Shown in pieces: positions 7,808 to 32,312 of a DNA stretch of 51,528 nt. Position 1 is the stretch's first letter. The number at the start of each line of letters is the position of its first letter. Location of the stretch: positions 1 through 51,528 of the forward strand of contig CALDYY010000083.1 in NCBI GenBank assembly GCA_937944245.1, read 5' to 3'. The notes under the pieces were generated by a model. It had not been told where the DNA came from. It saw nothing but the letters and a program-made list of their open reading frames with translations, and made no database searches. The DNA is from an uncultured Saprospiraceae bacterium. Lineage in GTDB: Bacteria > Bacteroidota > Bacteroidia > Chitinophagales > Saprospiraceae. A program made the translations under genes and the position numbers.

Positions 7808-10800
7808 ATGGCGGCAATTTACAAGCGAGAACCACTATGGTACAAAGATGCAATCATCTATGAACTGAATATTAAGGGCTTCAAGGACAGCACTGGAAGC
7901 GGTATCGGAGACTTCAAAGGCTTAATTTCTAAATTGGATTACTTACAGGATTTAGGTGTAACCGCTATTTGGATGCTACCTTTTTATCCCTCGCCTTTGC
8001 GCGATGATGGGTACGATATTTCAGACTATTATACCGTCAGCGAAAGATATGGTAATTTAGATGATTTCAAACTACTTTTAGATGAAGCACATCGCCGTAA
8101 TTTAAAGATAATTACAGAGCTAGTTATTAATCATACTTCTGACCAGCACGCTTGGTTTCAAAGAGCAAGAAGAGCTCCCATAGGTTCAGTGGAGCGAGAT
8201 TATTACGTCTGGAGCGATGACCCTAATAAGTACAAAGATGTACGAATTATTTTCCAAGATTTTGAAACTTCCAACTGGACTTGGGACTCAGTGGCTAAGC
8301 AATACTACTGGCATCGTTTCTATTCCCATCAACCCGATTTAAACTACGACAATCCAGCAGTCCAAGAAGAAATTTTTAAAATACTTGATTACTGGACAAG
8401 CATGGGAATTGATGGCTTCCGATTGGATGCTATACCCTACCTGTACGAGCGAGAAAATACCAACAGTGAAAATTTGCCAGAAACGCATGTCTTTCTTAAA
8501 AAATTAAGAAAATTCATTGATGAGCGATACGATAATGTCTTGTTCTTAGCAGAAGCTAACATGTGGCCAGAAGATTCGGCTTCCTATTTTGGCAATGGTG
8601 ATGAATGCCATATGAATTACCACTTTCCATTGATGCCAAGAATGTATATGTCGCTAAAAATGGAAGACCGCCACCCGATAACGGATATTTTTGAGCAAAC
8701 ACCAGAAATTCCTAAAGATTGCCAATGGGCAACTTTCTTGCGCAACCACGATGAATTAACCCTCGAAATGGTAACTGATGAAGAACGCGACTATATGCGT
8801 AAGCACTACGCAGCAGACCCGAAAGCAAGAATCAACCTAGGTATTCGTCGCAGATTAGCCCCATTGCTCGACAACGACCGAAGCAAAATTGAATTAATGA
8901 ATACTTTGCTGTTTTCTTTGCCTGGAACACCAGTATTGTACTACGGCGATGAAATAGGAATGGGTGATAATTATTATTTAGGTGATAGAGATGGTGTAAG
9001 AACACCTATGCAATGGAATGCCAATCAAAATGCAGGTTTCTCAGAGGCTAATCCACAGTCATTGTATTTACCTGTTATTATTGACCCAGAATACGATTAC
9101 AAATATGTGAATGTTGAACGCCAGCAGAGAAATACCAATTCATTACTTTGGTGGACGAAACGAACTCTGGCAACTCGCCAAAAATTTAAGGCTTTTGGTA
9201 GAGGTGATATTGAATTTTTAGCACCTTCCAATCCAAAGGTTTTGGCATTTATCCGAAAATATGAAACAGAAGAAATATTGGTTGTCATTAACCTCTCTCG
9301 TTTCGTAGAGGGCGTTTATTTGGATTTAAACCACTATCAGCATTACATTCCAGTAGAAATATTTGGCGATAGCGAATTTCCAAGAATTGAGTCAACGCCC
9401 TACTTCATCAGCATGGCACCACACGGCTACTATTGGTTTCAACTGAAACCTATTGCACTCTTTTTCATGAATGATGATTCAATAAAAACCCATGAAATAA
9501 ATGCGGCTAGTTTTGAGGCACTTTCTTCACATCCTGACTTTACTAGCGAAGTGTTAGTGAAATACCTATCTAGCGTAAGTTGGTTTGGCAATAAAGACCG
9601 CAAAATTGAGCGCGTGGAAGTAGTAGATTCTATTTTATTGGCTGATAATGAACATCAGTTCAATATATTGATTGTACAAGTTTTTTTTAGGACTGGGATG
9701 CCAGAGCTATTTCAAATTCCAATTACGTTCAAAGAAATTGCTGGAGAAGATGCTATTTGGCAGAAAGATGAGGTAATTGGCATTGCAAATATTGCAGGTA
9801 AGAAAGGCTTAATAATAGATGCTCTATTCAATGAAGCATTTAGACTTAAGATACTCAACAATAACAAGCACTTAGCACAAAACGAAAACATTGTATTTGA
9901 GTTACCAGAAATGATACCTGTAACCAAATCAGAAATACGCCGCTCCACCATTCAATACACCGCAGCAGCTTATCAGGAAGGTTACTACCTCAAATTTTAT
10001 AGAAGAATTGATGTACAACCCAATCCTGATTATGAAATAAATTATTGGCTAACCAAAGAAAGCCACTTAAGTTTTGTGCCTCAACTATTGGGGTCAATTT
10101 TTTACCGCTCTGGTAAATACAATACGTCTTTAGCTATACTGCAACCGCTAATCGCACATCAAGGATACGGTTGGAATTACATTACAGATGCTTTGAAACG
10201 CCTTGTAGCCAATTTGCAGGTAAATTCTATTCCAACCTGGGATGTACCTCAAAGTATATTTGAAGAGTTGTCATTAGAATCACTTTCTGATAATTTGAAA
10301 TTGTTAGTGGATTATGACGTAGTTGAAAAAGTGCAGAAAATGGCACAAAAAACAGCACACATGCACCTTGCACTAATGGACACGCAAGGCAAGGATACCC
10401 CTAATTTTGAGCCAGAATTATTCTCGCTTCATTATCAACGCTCTCTTTTTGCTGCACTCAAGGCATTGGTTCGATCCACATTAACAGAGTTAAAACATCA
10501 AATATCAAACTTACCTATTGAAGATCAACCCATAGCTAAAGAAGTGATGAATTTAGAGAAAGAAGTGATGAATTTTTTCAGTCGCATATATATTCATAAA
10601 TTTGAAGCCACTAAAATTAGAATACATGGCAACTATCACCTAGAACAAATAATGTTGGTAGGCGATGATGTTATGATAGATGACTTTGATGGTACTTTTG
10701 ACCGACCTTTTAGTGAACGAAGACTACGAAGGTCTCCACTCATTGACGTTGCTGCTATGTTGCGTTCCATTCATTATGCGACTACGTTTGCGCGTTTAGA

Positions 10801-11110
10801 ATTGCCTAATGAGAACAAAACATTACTTACCAACTCACTAATAACTTGGCAGACAATAATTTGCAGTTTTTTCTTAAATGCTTACAAAGCAGAAATCAAT
10901 GCTAGTGGTGTCAAGGAATTTATTCCCGATGATGAAGATGATTTTAAGATATTGCTTGAAATATTGATGCTAGAAAGAGCATTTAAAGAATTGCACTATG
11001 AACTGAATTATCATCCTGAACGTGCAGTTATACCTATGCAGGGTATTTTGGATATGCTAAGCATAAAGATACCGAAAGAGAAAACATCCACTATCTGGGG
11101 ATTAAACTAA
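7808..11110 (+). CDS. treS: Trehalose synthase / maltokinase fusion (TreS-Mak), kinase motif altered
   Basis: A 1100-aa fusion. Residues 1-550 are a GH13 trehalose synthase (maltose-trehalose interconversion) with an intact catalytic triad: Asp207 in DGFRLDAIP, Glu249 in FLAEANMWPED and Asp315 in FLRNHDE. The C-terminal half is a maltokinase-like domain, normally making maltose 1-phosphate for GlgE. Here the usual HGD(L/Y)H motif reads RIHGNYHLEQ, with Asn942 (codon at 10631) in place of the catalytic Asp, and the usual IDFEGEP motif reads IDDFDGT (957-963). The downstream ERRLRRSPLIDVAAMLRS segment is well kept. The isomerase half should be active; the kinase half may be inactive or altered. 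No glgE, glgB or other glycogen gene is adjacent. Confidence 0.93.
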   Translation: MAAIYKREPLWYKDAIIYELNIKGFKDSTGSGIGDFKGLISKLDYLQDLGVTAIWMLPFYPSPLRDDGYDISDYYTVSERYGNLDDFKLLLDEAHRRNLKIITELVINHTSDQHAWFQRARRAPIGSVERDYYVWSDDPNKYKDVRIIFQDFETSNWTWDSVAKQYYWHRFYSHQPDLNYDNPAVQEEIFKILDYWTSMGIDGFRLDAIPYLYERENTNSENLPETHVFLKKLRKFIDERYDNVLFLAEANMWPEDSASYFGNGDECHMNYHFPLMPRMYMSLKMEDRHPITDIFEQTPEIPKDCQWATFLRNHDELTLEMVTDEERDYMRKHYAADPKARINLGIRRRLAPLLDNDRSKIELMNTLLFSLPGTPVLYYGDEIGMGDNYYLGDRDGVRTPMQWNANQNAGFSEANPQSLYLPVIIDPEYDYKYVNVERQQRNTNSLLWWTKRTLATRQKFKAFGRGDIEFLAPSNPKVLAFIRKYETEEILVVINLSRFVEGVYLDLNHYQHYIPVEIFGDSEFPRIESTPYFISMAPHGYYWFQLKPIALFFMNDDSIKTHEINAASFEALSSHPDFTSEVLVKYLSSVSWFGNKDRKIERVEVVDSILLADNEHQFNILIVQVFFRTGMPELFQIPITFKEIAGEDAIWQKDEVIGIANIAGKKGLIIDALFNEAFRLKILNNNKHLAQNENIVFELPEMIPVTKSEIRRSTIQYTAAAYQEGYYLKFYRRIDVQPNPDYEINYWLTKESHLSFVPQLLGSIFYRSGKYNTSLAILQPLIAHQGYGWNYITDALKRLVANLQVNSIPTWDVPQSIFEELSLESLSDNLKLLVDYDVVEKVQKMAQKTAHMHLALMDTQGKDTPNFEPELFSLHYQRSLFAALKALVRSTLTELKHQISNLPIEDQPIAKEVMNLEKEVMNFFSRIYIHKFEATKIRIHGNYHLEQIMLVGDDVMIDDFDGTFDRPFSERRLRRSPLIDVAAMLRSIHYATTFARLELPNENKTLLTNSLITWQTIICSFFLNAYKAEINASGVKEFIPDDEDDFKILLEILMLERAFKELHYELNYHPERAVIPMQGILDMLSIKIPKEKTSTIWGLN

Positions 11111-19529: not shown

Positions 19530-20501
19530 CTAAAAGTTAGGTATTCTAGCTTTTGAACCTGTTTGCCCACCAAAATTAAATCCAATGGTTACCTCATGTC
19601 CACCTCCATTATATTCTTGGAATTTCATAAAAGAAACATCGTAAGCGTAATAAATTCGGAAAGTAGATACTTTAAAACCTAATAAGCCCGCTCCATGCGC
19701 CGTTAAACCATCATCAAATGCAGTTTGCATATGACGAAAGGAAACACCAATGGTAAATGCTTCTTGCAAAAATTTTACTAACAAATTAGCATCTATTCGG
19801 AGTGGTACATTTTCCATTTTTAGGAAAAAAAGCGAAGGCTCAATTTGAAGATTATCATTAATGAAAAATTCATGCCCTAGTTGTGCCGTCAAGGAACTCA
19901 TAAAAGATAACTGGTTGGTTGATGTATCTGTTGCCAGCTTAATATCACTTAATTTTGCAGTTACCAGATTTGGTAAACTCACCCCTGCATAAGTACTACC
20001 CAACTGCGCAAATACACCAAAAGTAGCATCAAAAAAGCGCGATCTATCAATGTTTCCTTCCACAATAGGATCACCAGGTTGATAAAATTCATTGTCTAAT
20101 ATTCCACTAGAAACACCTCTTTGACTAATTTCTCCTGTCAAGCCTGCACTAATCGTGAAGTCATCTGTAATTTTAAATCGTCCGCCAAGTCCGCCTTGAA
20201 ATCGCTGATTTGTAAGTGCGGCAATGTTTTCTGCCATTACACTACCTCCAACTGTAAGTACATTACCTATCCTACCGCTACCCGATACAGCGTAAGTAAT
20301 GGGTGCACCTGGAAAACCAGTCCATCCAGAACGAATATTTAGAAATACTTGATTACCACTTGCTCCATATGCACCTGGGTTAACCAATGCTGGATTGACG
20401 TGGTAATGTGTGAAAATAGCTTCCTCTGTAAGTTGAGCTTTTGTAGCAAAATGAAGCAATGCAATGATAATCGTAAAGAATGTTTTTTTCATGTTATTCA
20501 T
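19530..20501 (-). CDS. PorP/SprF family outer-membrane protein of type IX secretion
   Basis: Outer-membrane beta-barrel protein of about 323 aa. A signal peptide ends in ATKAQ, followed by the family hallmarks FTHYHVNPALVNPGAYG, RSGWTGFPGAP and a C-terminal strand YAYDVSF. PorP/SprF proteins anchor or assist cargo bearing type B sorting domains and are usually encoded beside it, as here. The frame is open to 20531, but MNNMKK (20501) or MKK (20492) gives a proper signal peptide. It lies 52 bases downstream of the multi-cohesin gene and is probably the last gene of that operon. Confidence 0.93.
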   Translation of the reverse strand: MNNMKKTFFTIIIALLHFATKAQLTEEAIFTHYHVNPALVNPGAYGASGNQVFLNIRSGWTGFPGAPITYAVSGSGRIGNVLTVGGSVMAENIAALTNQRFQGGLGGRFKITDDFTISAGLTGEISQRGVSSGILDNEFYQPGDPIVEGNIDRSRFFDATFGVFAQLGSTYAGVSLPNLVTAKLSDIKLATDTSTNQLSFMSSLTAQLGHEFFINDNLQIEPSLFFLKMENVPLRIDANLLVKFLQEAFTIGVSFRHMQTAFDDGLTAHGAGLLGFKVSTFRIYYAYDVSFMKFQEYNGGGHEVTIGFNFGGQTGSKARIPNF

Positions 20502-20553
20502 ATTTGATGCCCAATCAAGCAGACTGGGCAAATCGGTTGTGGGAAAACTTATT

Positions 20554-23500
20554 TTATTCTGTTAATATAGTTACACTTCCTTTTTCCTGCTTCATCACAT
20601 TGCCATCCAAGTAGTGCAGTACAAAAAAGTAAGCACCATCAGGCAGGCGATTACCGCTCATGTCTGTTCCGCTCCAAGAACCATCATAATCCTCTGAGGT
20701 GAACACCATATTTCCCCAACGAGTATATACCTCAAGGCGTTTCTGCTCGAATATATTTAAGCATTTGATTTCCAGCGTTTCATTTCTTTCATCGCCGTTA
20801 GGTGTGATAATAGCACGGCTAGACAAACACAAATTGCGACTAAATACTTGAGTTAGTACAGTATCCTTACACCCTTGAATATCTGTTACAATAAGTTGGT
20901 AGTTCGTTTCTATTGTTACCCCACTAATGGCTCGCGTGGTTTGAATAGGATTTGTTACAGTAGTTAAATCTATCCACTGATAAGTATAATTAGGGGTACC
21001 TCCTTTTACTAAGGCTTCCACACCTCCACCTTGTTGCTCAGTGAAAGGTATGACCTCTAAAGAAATACTTAATGGTTGAGGCTCTGAAATCTCAAAAGAT
21101 TTTGTAGTAACACAGCTATTGTCATCACGAACACTAACTTGGTACATTCCAGGTCTAAGATTGCTTACTGCTGAAATGTTGAGTGTGGAATCAAAACTCC
21201 ATCTAAATCTGTAATTTCTACCTGCACCACCTGAAGGTGCTGCTAACACCTCCCCATTGCCTGCCCCTGCACAAGGAATATCAACTACGTCTAGTGTTAA
21301 CTCCAAAGCTGGTGGCTCTGTTACAATAATGGTAGAGGAAGCGCGACATTGCTGATCATCTGTTACCACTACTCGATAAGTACCAACCCCCACACCAGAG
21401 AGTGAATTTCCCATACCTAATTCTTCGTTTGCAATATTGAACCAACGATAAGAAAAATTCTCTCCATTTCTACCCATCGCCCTCAACATCGCATCTTTAG
21501 CCCCGTTACAACTGACACCAAAGCCGTTATAATTTGCCCCAAAACTAGGCACTACCTCTAATAGAGAACTAGAACCAATCTCAAAACTTCTCGTAATAGA
21601 AACACCTGAAGATTCTGTTATTTTCACCGTAAATTTTCCTGCCTTAGCGTTGATTAAATCTTTTGTGGTACTTATCAAATCACCCGCCTGATTGCGCCAT
21701 TCATAGGTGTAATTAGGTTGACCACTTTCCACTGTTAATGTAATACTACCCGTAAAATCATCTTCTGGGCATTTAGCATTGGTAATTACACCACTAGCAT
21801 TTAAATGCTCCACTCGAAAAGTATCTATTTGCGTGCAACCTACGGCATCAGTGATAGTTACGGTATAATTACCCGGACAAATAGAACCAATATCTTTAGT
21901 TGTCTGATTGTTTGACCAACGATAAGTATAATTACCACCACCGCCACTAACTGCCAAATTAATTCGACCATTACAAGGTGCTAGAATTTCGGTAGAAGAG
22001 AATCTAGTAGGCACTACATTAAATATTTGTGGGGCAGCAATCGTAATTTCATCAGGAAAAGTATTGCCGTTACCATCTCGAATCATCAAACGATAAGTGC
22101 CCGGTGCAAGATTATTAAATTCAAATCTCGGGTTGTGTGTTTCTGCTGTAAGCATTACAGTATCCGTAACACTCATCAACATCACTTGAAAACCAGGGTC
22201 GCCACAAGGAATGTTAAATGAAATTGTACCATCCGTAAAACCAGAACAGGTGACTGGTATAATTTGATAGTTAGCAGGTTGTGGCAAATTTGGTTCAAAT
22301 TGAACAACGGCTGTATCTCTAATTTCACAACCTACCGAATCGCGCACTACAAAAGGATAACGACCGCTACTTAGGTTGGTTAAATTACTAACACCAGCAG
22401 GTAAAGTATCATTTGCCCATGCTAGAGTAAGTCCACCGAATCCACCAGAAATTTGTAAGTTAATTGCTCCATTGTTTGTGATGGCATTACAGGTTTCATT
22501 GGTAATATTTTTAGTAGCAATAATGGCTGGCGCATTTGGAATAGTGTAAGTGGCAGAAGTGCTTTCTCCTTCTGCGTCAGTGATGGTTACACTGATGTCG
22601 CCTGGTCTTAAATTAGACAATTCGGGGCTAGTTTGTCCATTGCTCCAAATGTACGTAAAGGGCGTAAATCCACCAATCACGTCCAATTGAATACCTCCAT
22701 CTTGTCCTGTTCCGCAGGCAAATTTAATCGTTGGTTGCGCTAAAGCCAGTGGCAGTGGCACTCTAAACTTTTGATTAGTCGTACAACCTTTTTGGTCAGT
22801 AATCGTTACTGCATATTCACCAGGCAGGGTCAAATTATTAAGGTCCTTTGTATTTGCCCCTTCAAATCCTTGAGGACCTGTCCAGTTGTAAGTATAAGCA
22901 GCTTGTCCTCCAGCCACAGTTATAACAACTGAACCAGGGTTACCTGTTTCTATTTTTTTCACTGTGGATTGTGTAATGCGCAATGGATCGCCTGTGCTGG
23001 TAATGACTATACTTGCAGAAGTGGTACAGTTATTGCCATCTGTGATGGTTACGGCATAAGTTCCTGCTGCCAGTTGGCTTCTTCTGAACATGCGCAAAGT
23101 GTCGTTGTCCATCCAACGTACCGTATAATCTGGTGTGCCTCCTCGAACAGTCAAGTCTATTGCTCCTGTCGCTTCTCCAGCACAATTAATATCTGTTTTA
23201 TTCGTCGTTATTTCTAATGCTTGTCTGGGTCCTTGCACAGTGATGCTATCTAGCTCAATAGAACAGTTGTTAGCATCTGTAACTGTTACTGCGTACATTC
23301 CCGCAGGCACTCTTGTTGGATTTGCACCAGTCAATGCTGGATTATCCCAACGGTAAGTCAATGTGCCTGTACCACCGCCTGCATTTACGTTAATAGATGC
23401 ACCTCCATCACCAAAGCAAGCTACTCGCCCAACTACATTAGCAGAAAGTGTGATACCTGCTGGTTCTGTAATGGTAAAAGAGCGCGTTTGATTAAATTGG

Positions 23501-25959
23501 CAAGCTGCATTTGTAACCGTAACGGTGTAATTGCCCGCTCTTAAATTTCTTGGATTTGCCCCCGAAATACCTGTTTGAGACCAGACATAAGTATAATTGC
23601 CATCGCCACCTTGAACAGCAACCGAAATTTGACCATTATTGCCACCTTGACAAGATATGTTTGTTACATTACCGTTAACAGTGAGCGGTGCGCAAGCCTC
23701 TCGAACGGTAACAGAACCTTCTCCCCCTCTGAAATTAAGTTCATTAAGGCTAGAATTAATGACTTCAATAGGACTAGTTGGAGATAGGTCTTGGTAACCA
23801 ATTAATGATGTACCTATTGCTCTTGCAGTATAACAAATGCGAAACAACTCTGTATCATTGGCTATAGTTACACCTGCTGAAGTAACATCTTCAAAATTAA
23901 AGTTAACCTGTCCATCATTGGTAAATAATCCAAAATTACCTTCTAAGTTAAGGTTTAATGGGTTATTACCTAACCTAATTTCTTTATACGTCAGAATATC
24001 TGCATCAAATTTTATCGCAAACTGCGCACTAATAATTCTGTTGAAATTTTGAGCCGTTATGCGTGTACAAACCTCTTCACCAACACTCGCTGTTTCTTTG
24101 GAAGCACAAACAGGTAAAGCATTTTGATCGCAAGCAGCGGGTAGTGGCGTTCCAAAAATATTGACTCGCCCTATTGTTTGTTTAAAAGGAAGAAATTGTT
24201 GAGACGCAGTAATAATTTCTATGGCACGCGGTTGATTTGTGAACTCGACGACACTATTTTGACCCGATGTGCCAATTGCATCGAAGCAAATTTGGTAAAT
24301 AACCGTACCATCATTTAAGCTGACGCCCCTTGAATCGTCCCAAGACATTAGTAAACGCCCCATATTAGCTTCAGCAGTACCAAAATTTGTTACTGCCAAA
24401 CCAGTTAAACTTGGATTAAACTCTTCTAAACCCGCAAATCGAAGTACAGCAGGATTCCACCTCATGCTATATTGAAGCCCTGCAATATTCCTGAATCCAG
24501 TTACACTTACATTTAAACAAATTCTACTATTGGGCGGGGTAGTTAATGTAGGCATATTTAAACTAAACTCATTAGAAATGCCACCACCTTGCACCGTAAC
24601 ACTACTCGGTGTGGTAGTGATTTGTGTGGGAGCGTTATTCCTAGTGGCTTCTGTGTTTGTACCGCCACCAAATCCAATAGTGGCTGTACCAGTTCCTACA
24701 ACATTAAAGCAAACTTCAAAAATAGTTGTATTATTGGGGACACTGGTGGAACTACCTGTCGGATCTGTCCACGCTAGAATAATTCTACCTTCTGCTATAC
24801 TTGGTGGTGTGCCAAAATTAGTAGCAGATAAGCCTGCCAAGTTAAAACCTCTAATGTTGTTAAACCTTAAAATAGTAGTGTTATAAGTAATGCCAAATTG
24901 AACCCCCTCAATTTGTGAGAAATTCTGGACAGTAAAAGGTACACATACCTGCTGACCTATCTGCCCATTTGCACTGCCCGCTACAATAGTAACTGGTCCA
25001 GTTGGTGTAGGGTCGTCAGGTTGAATGGTTACGTTGCCATTCACTGCATTAATCTGCACTACCCCAACGTTGGCTCGGCGTGCCTCTAATGAAATCCTAT
25101 CGCCAGCAACGGATACAATAGTGCTAGGCTGGTTACTAGATATAATCGTAAAAACAAGTTCAAATATTTTTGTTCCATCAGGGACAGTAGTAGAAGAAGA
25201 TGCCATATTTGACCACGCCATCGTAATTTCTCCTGCGTCAATATTAGGGTTAGCTGGTGTACCAAAGTTACCTATGGTAAGGTCTTGCAAGTTCAAGGCA
25301 TCAATGCGCACAAATTGTAACAAAGCAGGATTATATCGAAAGCCAAATTGAATAGCTTCCATATTTACAAAGTTGGATACGGTAACAGGTACTCTAATCT
25401 CCTGCCCTACACGCCCAGTTGTATTGCCAATTGTAATGCTTACAGGAGTATTATTTACAGGTGTTCCACTACCTACTGTTACGTCTTTGCTATCGGGTTG
25501 CATACGGAACTCTGTATTGCTATCTGGAATACCATATACGCCAGCAACTACTTCTATTTTAGAACTACCATTCGCCTTAGCTCTTAAAGTTACCGTTAAT
25601 AACCTTGTTTGGTTTGGTAAATTATTCGCAGCAAGATTATTATCCAACCAAGAAACAGCTATGATTCCTCTGTTAGTATTTGGCGGTGTATTACCGATAC
25701 TACTTGCAGGTGTAAAGCTAGGCAACATTGCTGTGGAGATAATATTATCAGTAGAAACATACTCAAAAATATTAGGGTTCCACTTGATTTCAAATCCAAT
25801 AGCAATTAGATTAGTAAAGTTAGTCGTCAATACATCTACTGTAATTGTTTCGCCAACTTGAGGATTAGTGTTGGAGATGTTAGTACTGATGAAAGGTGCT
25901 TGAGCCATCATCATAAAATGGCTCAAGGCAATACAAATAAATAATAAGATTTTTTTCAT
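20554..25959 (-). CDS. Scaffoldin-like T9SS protein: five cohesin-like domains, SprB repeats, type B sorting domain
   Basis: Secreted protein of about 1801 aa from MKK at 25959, with a signal peptide ending MMAQ. Five cohesin-like domains lie at about 25-165, 170-315, 320-460, 462-605 and 612-755. Each has the pattern VGQ..VPVTV.NF..(I/M)EA.QF...YNP..L.F and later G.I...W...S..V.(D/N)(G/N)T.IF.(L/I/V)CF. About twelve SprB/PKD-like repeats follow (757-1690), with C.G...G.I...V.GG...YTY.W and G.Y.VT(V/I)TD motifs. Residues 1711-1801 are a type B (gliding motility-associated) sorting domain with ITPNGDERNE and YTRWGNMVF. An earlier TTG at 26031 would overlap the next gene and precede the signal, so it is rejected. 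Expected role: a large cell-surface scaffold. Confidence 0.9.
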   Translation of the reverse strand: MKKILLFICIALSHFMMMAQAPFISTNISNTNPQVGETITVDVLTTNFTNLIAIGFEIKWNPNIFEYVSTDNIISTAMLPSFTPASSIGNTPPNTNRGIIAVSWLDNNLAANNLPNQTRLLTVTLRAKANGSSKIEVVAGVYGIPDSNTEFRMQPDSKDVTVGSGTPVNNTPVSITIGNTTGRVGQEIRVPVTVSNFVNMEAIQFGFRYNPALLQFVRIDALNLQDLTIGNFGTPANPNIDAGEITMAWSNMASSSTTVPDGTKIFELVFTIISSNQPSTIVSVAGDRISLEARRANVGVVQINAVNGNVTIQPDDPTPTGPVTIVAGSANGQIGQQVCVPFTVQNFSQIEGVQFGITYNTTILRFNNIRGFNLAGLSATNFGTPPSIAEGRIILAWTDPTGSSTSVPNNTTIFEVCFNVVGTGTATIGFGGGTNTEATRNNAPTQITTTPSSVTVQGGGISNEFSLNMPTLTTPPNSRICLNVSVTGFRNIAGLQYSMRWNPAVLRFAGLEEFNPSLTGLAVTNFGTAEANMGRLLMSWDDSRGVSLNDGTVIYQICFDAIGTSGQNSVVEFTNQPRAIEIITASQQFLPFKQTIGRVNIFGTPLPAACDQNALPVCASKETASVGEEVCTRITAQNFNRIISAQFAIKFDADILTYKEIRLGNNPLNLNLEGNFGLFTNDGQVNFNFEDVTSAGVTIANDTELFRICYTARAIGTSLIGYQDLSPTSPIEVINSSLNELNFRGGEGSVTVREACAPLTVNGNVTNISCQGGNNGQISVAVQGGDGNYTYVWSQTGISGANPRNLRAGNYTVTVTNAACQFNQTRSFTITEPAGITLSANVVGRVACFGDGGASINVNAGGGTGTLTYRWDNPALTGANPTRVPAGMYAVTVTDANNCSIELDSITVQGPRQALEITTNKTDINCAGEATGAIDLTVRGGTPDYTVRWMDNDTLRMFRRSQLAAGTYAVTITDGNNCTTSASIVITSTGDPLRITQSTVKKIETGNPGSVVITVAGGQAAYTYNWTGPQGFEGANTKDLNNLTLPGEYAVTITDQKGCTTNQKFRVPLPLALAQPTIKFACGTGQDGGIQLDVIGGFTPFTYIWSNGQTSPELSNLRPGDISVTITDAEGESTSATYTIPNAPAIIATKNITNETCNAITNNGAINLQISGGFGGLTLAWANDTLPAGVSNLTNLSSGRYPFVVRDSVGCEIRDTAVVQFEPNLPQPANYQIIPVTCSGFTDGTISFNIPCGDPGFQVMLMSVTDTVMLTAETHNPRFEFNNLAPGTYRLMIRDGNGNTFPDEITIAAPQIFNVVPTRFSSTEILAPCNGRINLAVSGGGGNYTYRWSNNQTTKDIGSICPGNYTVTITDAVGCTQIDTFRVEHLNASGVITNAKCPEDDFTGSITLTVESGQPNYTYEWRNQAGDLISTTKDLINAKAGKFTVKITESSGVSITRSFEIGSSSLLEVVPSFGANYNGFGVSCNGAKDAMLRAMGRNGENFSYRWFNIANEELGMGNSLSGVGVGTYRVVVTDDQQCRASSTIIVTEPPALELTLDVVDIPCAGAGNGEVLAAPSGGAGRNYRFRWSFDSTLNISAVSNLRPGMYQVSVRDDNSCVTTKSFEISEPQPLSISLEVIPFTEQQGGGVEALVKGGTPNYTYQWIDLTTVTNPIQTTRAISGVTIETNYQLIVTDIQGCKDTVLTQVFSRNLCLSSRAIITPNGDERNETLEIKCLNIFEQKRLEVYTRWGNMVFTSEDYDGSWSGTDMSGNRLPDGAYFFVLHYLDGNVMKQEKGSVTILTE

Positions 25960-25993
25960 AATAATCGGAATTTGGATAACAGTTCGATGGTTG

Positions 25994-26758
25994 CTATTCT
26001 CGCAAGACTGCCAGTTTCTTTGTTGTTGCATAGTTCTTAGTCAATAATTGGTAGTAGTACACTCCAGATACTGGAAAAATACTACTATCTATTTCAAGAT
26101 AATTTTCGCCACTCAAAAGCGGCAATATGGATGTTTTAATTTGTTTACCTTCTTTTGTCCATAGTTTCAACTCGGCATATTGTGCTTCTGCTGCTACTAT
26201 GACTATTCTTGTGCTTTCTTTAAATGGGTTAGGATAGTTGTCCGATACCTCAATGCTAATGCTATTGAACCACTCTTTAGTGGAAGTGCTAGTATCAGCC
26301 CCAACAAAAATGGTACCATCAGATGTATTTACATTTACTATTTTCTCATTTTTATCCAGCACTTCTATTTTTGCAGGCAAATCCGTAAACCTCAATTGAG
26401 TGCTTGCATCTTTAAAGGCTGCTCGAAACTTTATAGAGAAAATGGTGGTGCTGTCGTTTACAGTTATTCCACTGAGTCCATCATCAATCCAAGCAAAACG
26501 CACTATTCCATTAAAAAGGCCGAACCTATCGTTTCTTACGCCTTGCAATCCAAAGTTTTCTACGCCAATCAACTGCAACAAGGTGGAATCCCAAACAATA
26601 GAAAACTGTGTACCGATAATGTCTTTAAACCCAATAACTTTTACGTTTGCAGTAAAGACTTCCCCTTGTTTTACTTGATGGCTAGTAGTTAGTAGTGTTA
26701 CTTGTGCATTTGCTTGAGCCAAGTAACCAATCAAAAGCATGGCTATTATTATTCTCAT
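25994..26758 (-). CDS. Single-cohesin T9SS protein (type A sorting domain)
   Basis: Secreted protein of about 254 aa. The signal peptide ends QANAQ. A cohesin-like domain spans about 20-155, with GEVFTANVKVIGFKDIIGTQFS and DSTTIFSIKFRA. Residues 170-254 are a type A C-terminal sorting domain with SDNYPNPFKESTRI, GVYYYQLLT and the basic end segment. The ATG at 26758 is preferred over the adjacent GTG at 26761. It lies 34 bases before the multi-cohesin gene and downstream of the dockerin gene. Type A cargo is usually released or attached to A-LPS, so this could be a small cohesin unit on the surface. Confidence 0.88.
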   Translation of the reverse strand: MRIIIAMLLIGYLAQANAQVTLLTTSHQVKQGEVFTANVKVIGFKDIIGTQFSIVWDSTLLQLIGVENFGLQGVRNDRFGLFNGIVRFAWIDDGLSGITVNDSTTIFSIKFRAAFKDASTQLRFTDLPAKIEVLDKNEKIVNVNTSDGTIFVGADTSTSTKEWFNSISIEVSDNYPNPFKESTRIVIVAAEAQYAELKLWTKEGKQIKTSILPLLSGENYLEIDSSIFPVSGVYYYQLLTKNYATTKKLAVLRE

Positions 26759-26923
26759 CACGTTAATTTTTACTAAGAGTAGCTGTTTTTGTTTCAGAAA
26801 TTAAGGGCGAAATTCTAACTTTTTCAGGTTAAATTCTAATAACCTTTCCCAAGTAAATGATTTTTGCCCTTTAACTTCTTTCGTGATGAATTTAATCCAA
26901 ATTTGGTTATCCTTAAAAAGCAG

Positions 26924-26946
26924 GAAACTTTCTATAAAAAAGTTTC
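26924..26946 (-). terminator. Weak terminator after the dockerin-protein gene
   Basis: On the minus strand GAAACTTT (26946-26939) pairs with AAAGTTTC (26931-26924) over a seven-base loop, followed by CTGCTTTTT. It lies 21 bases past the stop of the 1781-aa gene and could reduce readthrough into the cohesin genes. The rest of 26759-26966 holds no gene, and I found no clear promoter there. Confidence 0.4.
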
Positions 26947-26966
26947 TACTCAAAGCACATATTATC

Positions 26967-29900
26967 TTATTCCTCTATCAAAATCATTTTTTTTGTTTCG
27001 CTGTATGTTCCTATGGAAATTGTGTAGAAATAAATGCCAGCAGAAGGCAATTCTTTTCGCCCCACATTTATTTGATGTGTCCCAGCAGGATATGTAGCTG
27101 AAGTATGCCATATCATTTTTCCTGTAATGTTGCGTATGCTTATCTGCACCAAACCTTCTTCTGGCATCCAAATAGGAATTTGTGTTTGTACCGTAAAAGG
27201 ATTTGGCGTATTTTGACCTATTATCGGCTGTTGTTGTGCTAGCAATAACTTTGGCTTTAGTTGTAACAACCGCATTTCATCCTGCAAATAGACCTCGGCT
27301 GGAAGTGAAGCAGCTAATGTTAATTCGCTTTGCAAGTTAATATTCTCATTATTGAGTTCAAAGTAAGCGTAAGCTATTGGCACACTTTCCTCAAAGTATT
27401 GCGCTGTTGTATTCCACCAAATTATACGTAGCGTGCCGTCTTCAGCCTTCCAATCTTCTGATGTCAACCAATCAGATTCCAAATGGATTAAACGCATCTT
27501 TGCTGAAGGATAAGCCAACGCCATTTGAAATCCAGCGATAGCTCGGTCTTGCTCGAAATAGAGCGGCACTCGGATTTTATTTTTTGCTAGCGATTGTACC
27601 TCAAAAGTTATACCAAGTGTGGAAAGTGCATTCCTACCTTCCACATCTATTGTATTGGCGATGGCAGTGTAATTCACGTCCCCAATCTTAATAGCAATGA
27701 AATTAGCCTCTTGCGCATCTGCCGATAAATCATTGATATTAATAGCTTCTGGAAATTCCTCTGCCCAAGGATTTTGAGGATTAGGAAATTGATAATCCGC
27801 TGGCACAAATCGCCATGAAGTATTATTTGTGAACTCTCGGTCGTAGTCGAGTAATAATCGTCTCAATAAAATAATATCTAATGTAGTGATTGTCTTAGAG
27901 TTATTCACATCTGCAGCAATCATTTTGTATGGACTATCCAGTGGTGCTGTCCCTAAAATATGTTTACTTATTAAAATTATATCAAAAGTAGAAATACCGT
28001 TGAGCGGATCGTTATTTTTTTCGGGTTGCAAGGTGTAATCGTAGCCTAGTTCAATATTTGGAAAAGCAAATTCACCATTGGTATTGGTCATGCGCATATC
28101 GTTGTTGATGCCACCTAAGTTGACTTCTACATCTTGTACTCGTTTATCCATTTCCGTAAAAATCATGCCTGCAATTGTGCTACCTTGCGCTGCACAGGCA
28201 TCTTGCCGAAATGGCGTAATGTTAATGACCGTTTCACAGAAGCTTACATTTTTAGCAGCATCCATTGCCCAAATGGTAACGGGGACAATGCCAATTTCTT
28301 CTTGCACACATCGGAAAGTTCTTTTAGTAGAGTCAGGAAACTGCAACGGATTTGCAAAAGTGAATACTAAATCACTCCTTGATGTGCAAAAATCCAGTGT
28401 ACCAGCATCAAAATGACTAGCAGAAAATGTCAACTCACCCTGTGCAGACATAGCTGAACTTAATCCTGATTTGCAAACTATTAAAGGCGCTTTACAATCC
28501 TTTACTTCAAATGAAATTTCTATGGATTTTCGATTGCCACAGCCATCTTCAGCTTCCACCACAAAAACATGTTTTGCGGATAATCCATTGTTGTTCAAAG
28601 GATAATTGCCTGCTATGCGAAATTTACCATTTCCTAGCGAAGTCAAATTACCAAACAAATCTGCAGTAGCTGCACCTTCAAACGGTTTCAATTTGTAAGA
28701 GATATTAATATTTTCCCAAGCAGTACAGCCATCTGCCACAGTAAATGTGATATTGACAGGAGCGGTACACGCGCCAGCATTAGCGGGTTGCTCCTCCCCT
28801 CCACAGAAGGCGTTGTAAGCATCCACTGTTATTTCAGGGGCAGTATTGTCTTTCACTTTAATAATTTGACGGTATAAAATATTGCCATAGGCTTGGGCAC
28901 TTACATACGTTTCGGTTTGCTTTGAAAATTGAGAAATAGCTTGATAAGTCGTCACTCCAGAAGGGCGATTATTATTATCAATCACTACAAAATCAGCGTC
29001 AAAAGTCAAAGAAGTTACATCATAAATGTCAAACTCAACTGCCTCTGCTACGTCTTTTATTTTGAAAGGTCCCTCGCGGTCGTAAATGTAAATACCGTTT
29101 GCGTTTTCGTCGCCGTCATCAATATCGTTGATACCATCGTTATTGGCGTCTAAGTAGCGAAGGCTTACTTTAAAGTTGCGAGAAATTAAAGAATCGGGGC
29201 GTTCCACTACTGCAATTTCTGTATTGCTTGGATTCCAAGTACACCAGTTGATGAAGTTGTAAGTATTCACAATTTTGAAGCAAGCATCTGCTTCTTGGTT
29301 AAAAATATCTTGTTTTACATTCAATCCCCAATTATCGCAACCGTTGTTAGTCAAAATATCGCTGATGTTGGCAGGTGCAGTGGCTAAGGCTTCTGCTGAT
29401 GTGCAAAATAATTCTTTATCTGTTGGGAAGGTCATTGTCCAATCACTAGCACTTTTTACTTCGATTGCACCAGCATAAATGAGCGAACTATTGCCGCAAA
29501 GGTCAATCAAGCGGTAGCGGTAGCTTACTTCTCCGCCGCCGCAACCTTCGCGTAGGCGATTAAAGTCGGCATCTGTAATTCTAATAATTAGCGAATTAGC
29601 ATTAGCACAGTTATCCACAGCATTAATCTTGCCGATGTTGTTGCTGCGCATGAGTAATTGCCCTAGTTTTTCTATTCTTTCAACAATATTCAAATTCTTT
29701 TTTAAAGCAACTAATTCTGCGAATATAGGGTCAGCGCAAGTAATGGTTTCTGCTAGGTTATTTGCTGTCGGCGACAATTTATCTTGCAATTCTACCCTTG
29801 TCATACAATAATTGACGTTACCCTTGCCATCCGTAGCTCTAAGTACAACTTGAACAATTTGATTGCAAGATTCACCTAAATCTGCTCTTACGAATTGGAT

Positions 29901-32312
29901 GGTTGGCTTAAACTTTTCACTTGCTGGAATAGTGCTTCCTACTTCCATGCGAGCAACAGCAAAAGTAATTTGACCACAATTATCAAAACTACCATCATTA
30001 AAAGATTCTGCTTGTACTATTGCCTCGCAAGTCAGCCCTACCGCCACTACTCTTTTAGCCTCACAAATAACAGTTGGCGGCACACTATCCTCAAAAGTTT
30101 CTTTTTTAGTTTGTCGAGCAATATTACCACAGGCATCTCTTGCTATTAATTCAATCGTAACTTCCTCATCCACAGGAATATCTGGCATGACAAGTGTACT
30201 ACTTTGAAACTCGCGTTCAAGCGTACCAATCTTGATGCGTAAGGTAACAACTCCCTTGCAATCGTCCTCCACTTCGGGGCGATTAAAAGTAACGTTGACT
30301 TTACATCCTTGACTGGCACCGCCTGAAACTTGATAACTCAAAGGTGTCAATATAGTGGGTGCTTGGGTATCTCCAACTTGAATCACTTGTGGCAAAATAC
30401 CAATTAAAACAAGTTGACCATCACACCAGTCGTAAACTGTCCATGTTCTGAAAATCTTAAAACTCTCTCCACAAACAGGAATTTTATTGGAATCCTGCCA
30501 ATCCACAGCGTAGCCACAATCAATATTGCTTACATCCATAGGCACTTCATCACCAGAGCCGTTAGTGATATAATACTGTGGAAAATCAATCGGTGTAGGG
30601 TCAAAATTAGGGAGAAAGGCAGCGTATTCTCTTCTTGGGTCATTGGCTGGGCGACCTGCACGCACCCAATCTATCCAAGATTTTCGCAAATCTTTTGGGT
30701 CGGCACTCACATTGCAAGCCACTTTGAACTCGGGTAGTGGTGCAGAGATAGCAGGCTGATAAACATAAACCCTTTGTTCTTGAATGGCTTTATTGTTGCA
30801 TTTGTCACTAACAGTGAACGTTCGTTTGTAATAGCCAAAAGTGGCTGCTTGAAAAGAAACGCCATTCCAATCTGTTAACGTTCTTTCTTGTCCACAAGGT
30901 TCTTCCACAAATTCCCACTTAGAAGCAGCTACTCCCCATGAACAATTTTCCAGTACCTCCAACTGCTCTGCACCTTGCAAGAACAAATTAGCATTCGCTA
31001 AAGGCAAATATATCGTGCCGCCATTGCCACGCAAATTAGGGTCAAGAATATTTAATTTAGCTAAAGTGCCTGTTGGGTCATATGATTTCTCAAAGCAAGG
31101 AATGGCTAAATCTTTAGGTGCTTTAACAATAATTGGCGGTGTTTTATCTTCAATCATGATGCGTCCCCAGCAGAGATTGACAATTGGTACATCATCTATG
31201 GCTGTGCCATTAAATAATTTTCCGTTGCAATTAGAATCGTTTAAAACTGTTTTAATGATTCTCACATCAAATTTTGCGCCACAAGGTGCTTTACTAAAAT
31301 CTACAATAGGATAGTTTTCAACGGTGTAGCCCAATATTTCATATTGTGCTGAGTTAATCAATTCAACGGTATAGCTAACTACTGGAATTTGTGCGCCATC
31401 TACTGGTCGAGTTACAAACGCAGTAGAGCATTCATTTTTGAGAATAATATTTGGAGTGATAATGACAATACAATCATTAGAGAGCGAAACATTTACTTCA
31501 TCGTTGCAACTGGTCGTAGGTGCAAGAACTTGAATAACAGCTTCGCATTTTAAATCGGGATATTTAGAGGAAGCAAAAGTAACGGTGTGCGTACCAATTG
31601 GAAATGTACCTTCAATAAAACCTACTCCTGTACCGTCCACTGTGCTAGGCAAAGAGACGCTACAACTACTGCTGACACTGAGTTTACCTGTTGTACCACA
31701 ATCAGTAAAGCGAGGAATTGGAATTTGTACTTTTTGCTTGTTATCGCTACAAGGCGCAACAGCAAAATATTTGCCTGTACTACCATTGAAAGCATCAATA
31801 CGGCTGCAATCCAAAGCAGTGCCTACTCTTGGCGAGCAGCTTACCCGTCCACGAAAGCCAGCACCTCTTATGCGGTCGCCATTCACCGTCAATGCTAAGG
31901 TGATACAACCACTTTGATTAAAACAAGAGGCTTGGAGGATACCTCCACCAGGCGCATCCGAAACAGACGCACCTATTCCCGTACCCGCAGGAGCAGTAGT
32001 GGAAAAGAGCGGAGCACTGGTATTTGTACCATCGTAAGCTAAAAGTTGATCGCCTGGAGCCACATCAAATTGAGTAAATTCAATTCTGATGACGCTACTG
32101 CTAGCAGTGGTAGGGCAAATGGTGGCTATATCGGTTCTTGCGCCAATGTCATCGTTGTAGGAAGCGATTTCTCCACCATCATCGAATACGAATCCATCGC
32201 ATTGTTTTACTTGTTTTGCCTGCCCATTGGTGGGTAATAATGTAATAGTTTGTCCGTAAATACCGCCTAAATATAAAATAAAAATAAGTATAATTGTAAA
32301 ACTCTTTTTCAT
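26967..32312 (-). CDS. Large T9SS protein with dockerin-like module, HYR/Ig-like domains and type A sorting domain
   Basis: Secreted protein of 1781 aa; the signal peptide ends GIYGQ. Residues 30-155 are CUB-like (FDDGGEIASYNDD, GDQLLAYDGT). Residues 160-1370 are HYR/Ig-like beta domains, many with paired Cys and segments such as DSVPPTVICEAK. Residues 1370-1430 are carboxypeptidase-regulatory-like (TNTNGEFAFPNIELGYDY). Residues 1433-1490 form a dockerin type I-like pair (27843-28016): NNDPLNGISTFDIILISK and AADVNNSKTITTLDIILL, each with an Asp/Asn calcium loop and following helix, plus KIGDVN at about 1543. Residues 1555-1685 look like another, diverged cohesin. Residues 1695-1781 are a type A sorting domain (GQNTPNPF). 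It heads the cohesin cluster. Confidence 0.88.
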   Translation of the reverse strand: MKKSFTIILIFILYLGGIYGQTITLLPTNGQAKQVKQCDGFVFDDGGEIASYNDDIGARTDIATICPTTASSSVIRIEFTQFDVAPGDQLLAYDGTNTSAPLFSTTAPAGTGIGASVSDAPGGGILQASCFNQSGCITLALTVNGDRIRGAGFRGRVSCSPRVGTALDCSRIDAFNGSTGKYFAVAPCSDNKQKVQIPIPRFTDCGTTGKLSVSSSCSVSLPSTVDGTGVGFIEGTFPIGTHTVTFASSKYPDLKCEAVIQVLAPTTSCNDEVNVSLSNDCIVIITPNIILKNECSTAFVTRPVDGAQIPVVSYTVELINSAQYEILGYTVENYPIVDFSKAPCGAKFDVRIIKTVLNDSNCNGKLFNGTAIDDVPIVNLCWGRIMIEDKTPPIIVKAPKDLAIPCFEKSYDPTGTLAKLNILDPNLRGNGGTIYLPLANANLFLQGAEQLEVLENCSWGVAASKWEFVEEPCGQERTLTDWNGVSFQAATFGYYKRTFTVSDKCNNKAIQEQRVYVYQPAISAPLPEFKVACNVSADPKDLRKSWIDWVRAGRPANDPRREYAAFLPNFDPTPIDFPQYYITNGSGDEVPMDVSNIDCGYAVDWQDSNKIPVCGESFKIFRTWTVYDWCDGQLVLIGILPQVIQVGDTQAPTILTPLSYQVSGGASQGCKVNVTFNRPEVEDDCKGVVTLRIKIGTLEREFQSSTLVMPDIPVDEEVTIELIARDACGNIARQTKKETFEDSVPPTVICEAKRVVAVGLTCEAIVQAESFNDGSFDNCGQITFAVARMEVGSTIPASEKFKPTIQFVRADLGESCNQIVQVVLRATDGKGNVNYCMTRVELQDKLSPTANNLAETITCADPIFAELVALKKNLNIVERIEKLGQLLMRSNNIGKINAVDNCANANSLIIRITDADFNRLREGCGGGEVSYRYRLIDLCGNSSLIYAGAIEVKSASDWTMTFPTDKELFCTSAEALATAPANISDILTNNGCDNWGLNVKQDIFNQEADACFKIVNTYNFINWCTWNPSNTEIAVVERPDSLISRNFKVSLRYLDANNDGINDIDDGDENANGIYIYDREGPFKIKDVAEAVEFDIYDVTSLTFDADFVVIDNNNRPSGVTTYQAISQFSKQTETYVSAQAYGNILYRQIIKVKDNTAPEITVDAYNAFCGGEEQPANAGACTAPVNITFTVADGCTAWENINISYKLKPFEGAATADLFGNLTSLGNGKFRIAGNYPLNNNGLSAKHVFVVEAEDGCGNRKSIEISFEVKDCKAPLIVCKSGLSSAMSAQGELTFSASHFDAGTLDFCTSRSDLVFTFANPLQFPDSTKRTFRCVQEEIGIVPVTIWAMDAAKNVSFCETVINITPFRQDACAAQGSTIAGMIFTEMDKRVQDVEVNLGGINNDMRMTNTNGEFAFPNIELGYDYTLQPEKNNDPLNGISTFDIILISKHILGTAPLDSPYKMIAADVNNSKTITTLDIILLRRLLLDYDREFTNNTSWRFVPADYQFPNPQNPWAEEFPEAININDLSADAQEANFIAIKIGDVNYTAIANTIDVEGRNALSTLGITFEVQSLAKNKIRVPLYFEQDRAIAGFQMALAYPSAKMRLIHLESDWLTSEDWKAEDGTLRIIWWNTTAQYFEESVPIAYAYFELNNENINLQSELTLAASLPAEVYLQDEMRLLQLKPKLLLAQQQPIIGQNTPNPFTVQTQIPIWMPEEGLVQISIRNITGKMIWHTSATYPAGTHQINVGRKELPSAGIYFYTISIGTYSETKKMILIEE
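27843..28016 (-). other. Dockerin-like module within the 1781-aa protein
   Basis: Two F-hand-type units of about 22 residues separated by ~12 residues. Unit 1 has NDPLNG-S-D followed by IILISKHIL; unit 2 has DVNNSKTITTLD followed by IILLRRLLL. The paired calcium-loop-plus-helix layout is the signature of type I dockerins. This is a reading of motifs, not a profile search. Confidence 0.75.

Follow-up and report, generated by a model that had tools for sequence, protein, structure and literature searches.

Background

Cohesins and dockerins are familiar mainly as the pairing modules of cellulosomes, which degrade polysaccharides. The present study concerns a cluster of four genes for cohesin, dockerin and PorP/SprF proteins, which lies on the minus strand at positions 19530-32312 of a 51,528-nucleotide stretch of DNA from an uncultured Saprospiraceae bacterium; this whole stretch, contig C83 (CALDYY010000083.1) of a 3.80-Mb genome in 147 contigs, is referred to here as the window. 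Judging from sequence comparisons and predicted folds, the cluster is read, with moderate confidence, as the display unit of an extracellular cohesin-dockerin assembly of a non-cellulosomal sort, which would depend on the type IX secretion system (T9SS) and would dock proteases and adhesins. A preliminary description of the same DNA had placed these genes with gliding and secretion machinery and had suggested either a modular surface scaffold for adhesion or motility or a platform on which dockerin proteins from other loci would dock; it was borne out in part, with the docking platform gaining most support and the machinery link holding for PorP only.

Several described systems resemble the cluster, and they are characterized here by the available parts of each source. 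Like the clostridial cellulosome scaffoldins with their type I and type II pairs, the cluster encodes a multi-cohesin, non-catalytic scaffold, and its modules resemble solved ones by sequence (dockerins 4uyp/4uyq and 4dh2; cohesins 4ums, 3l8q, 1g1k and 2vn5). It differs in carrying T9SS tails and PorP where the clostridial systems use SLH or sortase anchors (PMC9012536), in having a dockerin that bears a conserved extension and mostly has a cohesin of its own beside it, and in its cargo, which includes peptidases and, in the proteins scanned, no glycoside hydrolase. The predicted cellulosome-like complex of the Cloacimonadota member 'Ca. Stygibacter' (PMC8542988) is alike in its tandem-cohesin scaffoldin with a C-terminal surface-attachment domain and in its peptidases with C-terminal dockerins; it differs by the CBM2/CBM3 on its scaffold and by the glycoside hydrolases among its cargo, and the available part of that account mentions no PorP neighbour, SprB repeats or dockerin-cohesin (DOC-COH) cassette. 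Cohesins and dockerins outside cellulosomes are already known from anaerobic methanotrophic (ANME) archaea (PMC9012536), where, as here, the system is non-cellulosomal, a surface use has been proposed and dockerin and cohesins occur in one protein; the archaeal system involves S-layer and substrate-binding proteins and no T9SS, as far as the available text goes.

Within the Bacteroidetes, the SprB-SprF pair of Flavobacterium (PMC9143113, PMC12618676) shares the SprB repeats (a Pfam name), the type B tail and the adjacent PorP-like gene. Unlike that pair, the present locus devotes about 700 scaffold residues to a cohesin array and has linked single-cohesin and dockerin genes. In addition, metagenome-assembled genomes of marine Bacteroidetes from Posidonia banquettes account for 65.7% of the cohesin/dockerin-related proteins found there (PMC8547425); these were read as cellulosome modules for cellulose degradation, and the accessible portion of the paper describes no gene cluster, T9SS link or DOC-COH unit. 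A literature search on cohesins and dockerins in Saprospiraceae, Lewinella, T9SS and gliding Bacteroidetes, which did not cover subscription papers and saw others in part, found no description of this system.

Composition of the gene cluster

Profile matches and predicted folds show a type B protein with several cohesins, whose gene adjoins that of a PorP, alongside a type A protein with one cohesin and dockerin proteins of two kinds. The first kind consists of a large body, a dockerin, a cohesin and a type A tail, as judged by profiles and models; the second, according to profile scans, carries a naked dockerin at its very C-terminus, without a cohesin or a known sorting tail. The four-gene cluster itself was confirmed by an open reading frame (ORF) check, which returned the ORFs as earlier listed, and by Pfam and NCBIfam. 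It comprises, all on the minus strand, the 1781-residue dockerin-cohesin surface protein with a type A tail, here called Doc (26967..32312; paralogues in the same genome); the single-cohesin protein Coh1 (25994..26761, probable start 26758; orthologues by profile A3); the type B scaffold protein (20554..25959, the probable start at 25959 being Met25 of a listed 1825-residue ORF that begins at 26031); and PorP/SprF (19530..20531; PF11751, E 1.2e-42; TIGR03519, 164 bits).

The scaffold contains five PF00963 cohesin stretches (E 9.9e-44, 149.4 bits against a cut-off of 24.1, on the 1825-residue ORF) in the region 23698..25890, at 25468-25890, 25018-25446, 24586-24996, 24151-24570 and 23698-24120, and its cohesins match 3l8q_A by profile (E 3.1e-10), the assignment to the cohesin fold being by sequence only. 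These are followed by SprB repeats at 20827..23697 (PF13573, E 9.3e-51) and by a CHU_C/type B sorting domain at 20566..20814 (PF13585, E 1.3e-20, 73.8 bits; TIGR04131, E 1.5e-11, 44.3 bits against a cut-off of 35). The five cohesins and the length of about 1800 residues given in the preliminary description thus stand, while its roughly twelve SprB repeats are reduced to 10 stretches by Pfam. Coh1 (255 residues) has a cohesin at 26297-26704 (PF00963, E 4.2e-9, 37.2 bits, against the same cut-off) and a type A tail at 26006-26236 (TIGR04183, 27.9 bits, cut-off 23). With the Doc tail at 26982..27206 (TIGR04183, 33.6 bits; the PorU C-terminal domain 6za2_A by structure), all three secreted proteins carry the T9SS tails that had been claimed for them.

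The encoding of an SprB-repeat type B protein beside PorP/SprF is the arrangement of an SprB-SprF-like pair. PorP-like proteins are described, in the available parts of two papers, as binding type B substrates at the surface (PMC9143113) and as shuttles of such substrates (PMC12618676); by analogy, the PorP/SprF of the window is expected to serve the type B scaffold as a shuttle or an anchor. It is the sole T9SS machinery among the window ORFs scanned, the translocon gene SprA (2364 bits) lying on a separate contig, C55. Directly downstream of that SprA gene is a dockerin protein whose length exceeds 1500 residues and which the contig end truncates (L046:1-12503).

The scaffold cohesins, including the one at 24586-24996, also have a pair of cysteines, present in 86% and 86% of 159 scaffold cohesins at two alignment positions. 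Cysteine is not among the common residues at either position in Coh1 or in the cohesins of dockerin proteins, and the pair may perhaps form a disulfide staple.

The dockerin of Doc lies, together with an extension of about 60 residues, at 27654..28022 (Doc 1431-1553), as supported by PF00404, profile matches to dockerins in the PDB and three helices in the models. Although PF00404 (Dockerin_1) scored below its cut-off of 22.9 bits in the protein scan (E 0.0021, 18.7 bits), the genome scan gave 24.9 bits, and a 22-relative profile finds dockerins of known structure (4uyq_B, whole-sequence E 2.4e-8, best stretch 1.2e-5; also 4uyp_B and 4dh2_B); for these reasons the sequence evidence indicates that the dockerin is real. 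The unit of 124 residues combines the three helices with the conserved extension W-R-F ... F-P-E ... F-V-A-I-K-x-G-D-V-N, and neither Pfam nor NCBIfam matched it as a whole in Doc. Type I-like dockerins bind calcium through positions 1, 3, 5 and 12 of the loops of both repeats. Among 99 aligned modules, loop 1 has D/N at position 1 in 96, D/N at position 3 in 80 and D at position 12 in all 99, and loop 2 has D at position 1 in 99, N at position 3 in 95 and D at position 12 in 99; threonine occupies position 10 in 98 (loop 1) and 86 (loop 2), and position 5 of loop 2 is serine in 85. The dockerin is preceded by a predicted CarboxypepD_reg-like beta-sandwich at 28017..28187 (Doc 1376-1432; residues 1-57 of the AlphaFold2 model), for which Pfam matches exist in paralogues and not in Doc itself. 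Residues ~35-160 of Doc look CUB-like by eye, with no Pfam match there.

The dockerin-cohesin unit

Immediately behind its dockerin, at 27240..27623 (Doc ~1564-1691), Doc has in addition a cohesin of its own, which the preliminary description had overlooked. Pfam did not list PF00963 for this cis cohesin; in paralogues the profile scores 33.1 (C125), 18.2 (C25) and 15.4 bits (C50) after the dockerin, and the cohesin part of the 22-relative profile matches 4ums_A (E 2.2e-6). An AlphaFold2 model of Doc 1376-1781 from an 86-row alignment has a predicted local distance difference test score (pLDDT) of 93.8 and a predicted template modelling score (pTM) of 0.80. In VIA structure comparisons, model residues 189-316 match 4ums (Z 12.9, 134 residues aligned, root-mean-square deviation (rmsd) 3.6), 1ohz_A (Z 12.5, 118 aligned, rmsd 2.5) and the archaeal 2xdh (Z 11.3, 122 aligned, rmsd 3.2), and a model of the DOC-COH part only again matches 4ums (Z 12.9, 124 aligned, rmsd 2.6). 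Residues 319-406 match 6za2_A (Z 11.1, 88 aligned, rmsd 2.2). The VIA match lists were filled by cohesin and tail matches, so that the dockerin part of the models was hardly probed by fold, which does not count against it, and Foldseek listed many Ig-like proteins beside cohesins.

The order of dockerin followed by cohesin was found in 124 of 124 proteins (122 of them distinct in sequence) in which the dockerin is followed by over 150 residues, comprising 100 of 100 on one set of 79 loci and 24 of 24 on loci of the source genome and of others; this count was not blind, as the cis-cohesin sequence model drew mainly on these very proteins and the 79 loci were ranked by a query that included the cohesin. 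A first, stricter search had found the cis cohesin in 98 of the 100. Proteins with a short sequence after the dockerin were omitted, namely L046 (contig end), L118 and L122 (edge of the fetched stretch) and C142/L045 (true end). When Doc 1431-1695 was modelled alone (99 rows), the pTM was 0.88 and the pLDDT 91.5. Because simple estimates are 0.50 for two free domains (at an inter-domain error of 25 Å) and 0.80-0.90 for one rigid body, we infer that the model holds the dockerin and its own cohesin in fixed contact as one unit.

Residue conservation fits the classical cohesin face for this contact. The glutamine of a 'GxQ' strand is present in 100% of 113 cis cohesins, 84% of 26 Coh1 cohesins and 68% of 159 scaffold cohesins, and the cis cohesins have the threonine and serine of 'GxITxSW' in 81% and 92%, respectively. 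In profile alignments, the glutamine aligns with a glutamine of cohesin 3l8q and with an aspartate of 4ums, on what we take to be the dockerin-contacting strand of known cohesins. The distance from the GD motif to this glutamine varies little (46-58 residues). Since the Doc dockerin is predicted to form one unit with its adjacent cohesin, its pairing in trans with the other cohesins of the cluster may need exchange or may not happen.

Naked dockerins and cargo

A second kind of dockerin protein is encoded in the same genome on contig C142, where a 641-residue protein with a lysyl endopeptidase match (4nsv_A, 3.5e-34) ends right after its dockerin. This protease and those of the 29 best other loci, which were the best hits to a dockerin-containing query and hence selected for the dockerin, end 0-28 residues after it in 30 of 30 cases (most 0-3), and no cohesin was found in the fetched DNA of any of the 30. 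None of the 20 scanned for sorting domains gave a T9SS match in NCBIfam at E up to 1. Compared to these, dockerin-free homologues of the protease carry TIGR04183 in 10 of 10 cases (34.5-58.1 bits, cut-off 23); these were homologues for which the match stopped short of the dockerin, eight of them from genomes without dockerin modules, and a dockerin was absent in all 10.

Naked dockerins are the minority in the two relatives that were enumerated. In the single-contig genome G062, 34 search rows correspond to 33 dockerin genes (two rows look like one interrupted gene), of which 28 have a cohesin and five are naked, the latter being an HYR-type protein (by eye), a 323-residue protein, the protease and two frames of 200 and 250 residues. 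The eight rows of G031 comprise five with cohesin, two naked and one fragment. In the source genome, eight dockerin proteins were found by profile, one of them cut by a contig end. The seven besides Doc include the naked-dockerin lysyl endopeptidase (C142) and an M43-type peptidase (C94), and they are what most strengthens the suggestion of a docking platform for proteins encoded elsewhere. The bodies of the scanned dockerin proteins contain HYR, Ig-type, PKD, LTD and SprB-type repeats.

Distribution in the Saprospiraceae

Among 20 Saprospiraceae-family loci selected for a Coh1 hit, the Coh1, scaffold and PorP genes are contiguous in 19, and in the twentieth (L114) the scaffold gene is interrupted by the end of the contig. 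Between three and 10 cohesins are present per scaffold in these loci (one scaffold is cut), compared to five in the window. A dockerin protein adjoins the block in 16 of the 20, immediately upstream in eight (for one of these, L119, the contig includes no more of the protein than the cohesin and the tail), upstream at a distance of 3 kb in one and downstream of PorP in nine, with two loci having it on both sides; in the four loci without one (L114, L123, L124 and L127), the contig ends on one side inside the block or within ~2 kb. The same block is present in further loci, e.g. L139, L149 and L174. Among cultured relatives, Lewinella cohaerens DSM 23179 and Phaeodactylibacter xiamenensis KD52 possess dockerin genes.

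A search with the dockerin module hit 135 of 150 genomes of the family, and PF00963 hit 140, of which 138 were above the cut-off. By hand count, 132 genomes had both, seven neither, three the dockerin module only and eight the cohesin only. This co-occurrence was set aside as proof of pairing in trans, since dockerin proteins themselves carry cohesins. A single-protein query with Coh1 (148 of 150 genomes) proved unspecific, as it included the sorting tail; with profile A3, which hit 149 of 150, the count of stand-alone Coh1-like genes takes only listed full-length matches in frames of ~260-330 residues, which by hand gives at least 58 of 150 genomes among the matches listed. Of 296 genomes drawn from the phylum, 24 gave a match to the module at 1e-10, five of them in this family; outside it, there was one in each of two other families of the class (E < 1e-40), and 17 weak matches (1e-11 to 1e-16) occurred elsewhere.

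The source genome has further scaffold-like loci. On contig C8 (L047:4848-11788), PorP adjoins a 1954-residue cohesin/SprB/CHU_C protein, and contig C125 (L040:2965-18201) encodes a dockerin-cohesin protein, a 2947-residue HYR-rich CHU_C protein whose cohesins were found only by a custom profile or below the Pfam cut-off, PorP and a PorE/OmpA-like protein. In addition, contig C44 (L048:9926-10414) encodes a lone-cohesin protein of 162 residues without a Pfam sorting tail, and several matches of profile A3 are similar short frames that stop soon after the cohesin.

Interpretation and alternatives

If the cluster is the display unit of a docking assembly, the scaffold would be kept on the cell surface by its PorP and would present empty cohesins, on which naked-dockerin proteins, chiefly the lysyl endopeptidase, would be retained. 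Proteins of the Doc kind would leave the T9SS self-docked, with the dockerin on their own cohesin, and this closed state would prevent premature clumping; they might later open or exchange with neighbours, giving a mixed adhesin and protease coat. Such an assembly would work like a cellulosome scaffold, yet would not be a cellulosome. The naked-dockerin proteins are inferred to be the likeliest scaffold clients, and trans pairing is less certain for the DOC-COH proteins, in which the prediction has the dockerin already engaged. In favour of the docking interpretation stand the homology of the cohesins and dockerins to solved pairs, the contiguity of the Coh1, scaffold and PorP genes, the constant DOC-COH order with its confident joint model, the conserved calcium-loop positions and 'GxQ' glutamine, and the naked dockerins of proteases whose dockerin-free homologues bear a sorting tail.

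Several points weigh against this interpretation. Pairing in this system is deduced from sequence and single-chain predicted folds, and position 5 of dockerin loop 1, a calcium-ligand position, is leucine in 65 of 99 modules. If the dockerins of the Doc kind are all busy in cis, the free cohesins are left with the fewer naked dockerins, of which there is one in this genome (C142). Eight of the 150 genomes have cohesins without dockerin modules, including G128 with seven PF00963 matches. The interpretation also does not account for the passage of tail-less proteins across the outer membrane. A full-length match to the dockerin protease, i.e. one that extends at least to residue 572 within a frame of 560-705 residues, was counted by hand in at least 70 of 150 genomes among the matches listed, of which 30 were read for the dockerin; the count includes G008 (in-frame stop) and excludes the short G067 and G118 as well as G127 (824-residue frame, no dockerin modules). 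Two genome associations speak for the docking interpretation: dockerin modules occur in 58 of 58 genomes with a listed Coh1 gene compared to 77 of 92 others (Fisher test, 4.9e-4), and the protease match in 43 of 58 compared to 27 of 92 (1.1e-7), all being hand counts among the matches listed that ignore shared ancestry; the 27 genomes with the protease match and no listed Coh1 gene are themselves at odds with docking on such a unit.

A first alternative, which is less likely though it deserves to be taken seriously, is that the DOC-COH unit is a fixed internal joint stiffening the stalk next to the sorting tail and that the scaffold cohesins are Ig-like spacers of an SprB-type adhesin, with no docking in trans. 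The invariable cis order and the confident joint fold would be expected of such a joint, the scanned bodies are of HYR/Ig type, the scaffold combines SprB repeats with a type B tail, and, of the 135 genomes in which dockerin modules were found, 77 lack a listed Coh1 gene. A joint of this kind does not account for dockerins that stand naked at the C-terminus of an enzyme and of further proteins that lack a cohesin and a known tail, nor for the conservation of the calcium-loop positions, and the conserved glutamine is also found in free cohesins, on the presumed dockerin-binding strand.

A more tentative extension of the docking interpretation, rather doubtful at present, is that the dockerin replaces the T9SS signal. 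Tail-less proteins would then cross, or stay at, the outer membrane by docking on the cohesin of a tail-bearing partner (piggy-back secretion), and the DOC-COH pair would be the closed form of this plug and socket, safe for secretion.

It is also conceivable, and on balance unlikely, that the DOC-COH proteins open and insert their dockerin into the cohesin of the next molecule, forming head-to-tail fibres that the scaffold and Coh1 would nucleate and anchor. Each such protein examined has one plug and one socket side by side, a single dockerin pattern runs through the 99 aligned modules, and one genome (G062) has 33 dockerin genes, 28 of them with a cohesin; however, the predicted closed state is one confident unit, and the nearly constant linker of 46-58 residues may make swapping strained.

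A true carbohydrate-degrading cellulosome whose enzymes were missed is very improbable and was rejected, for, despite the multi-cohesin scaffold and the many dockerin proteins, no glycoside hydrolase family was found in the dockerin proteins scanned (those of the source genome and six relatives, most dockerin proteins of the family being unscanned), and Pfam found no carbohydrate-binding module on the window scaffold (CBM_56 on the C8 scaffold scored 14.8 bits, below its cut-off of 27). The earlier statement that no carbohydrate-active enzyme is involved thus holds for the proteins scanned, although the cargo is not only adhesive, as peptidases occur.

Other features of the window

A promoter and terminator scan gave a number of sites not above that in shuffled sequences. 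At 7808-11110, the window also encodes a trehalose synthase fused to a domain resembling maltokinase (TIGR02456; TIGR02457 scored under its cut-off), an ordinary metabolic gene.

Implications

The proposed system is distinguished by its spread through the family, its tie to the T9SS, its cargo of adhesins and proteases, and the presence of a plug and socket pair inside most of its dockerin proteins. If the docking interpretation is true, it would provide new plug-socket pairs for engineering, and it would offer a testable rule by which proteins with a dockerin instead of a sorting tail are surface proteins without a known export signal. It would also account for the way in which Saprospiraceae cover their surface with multi-domain proteins of very large size.

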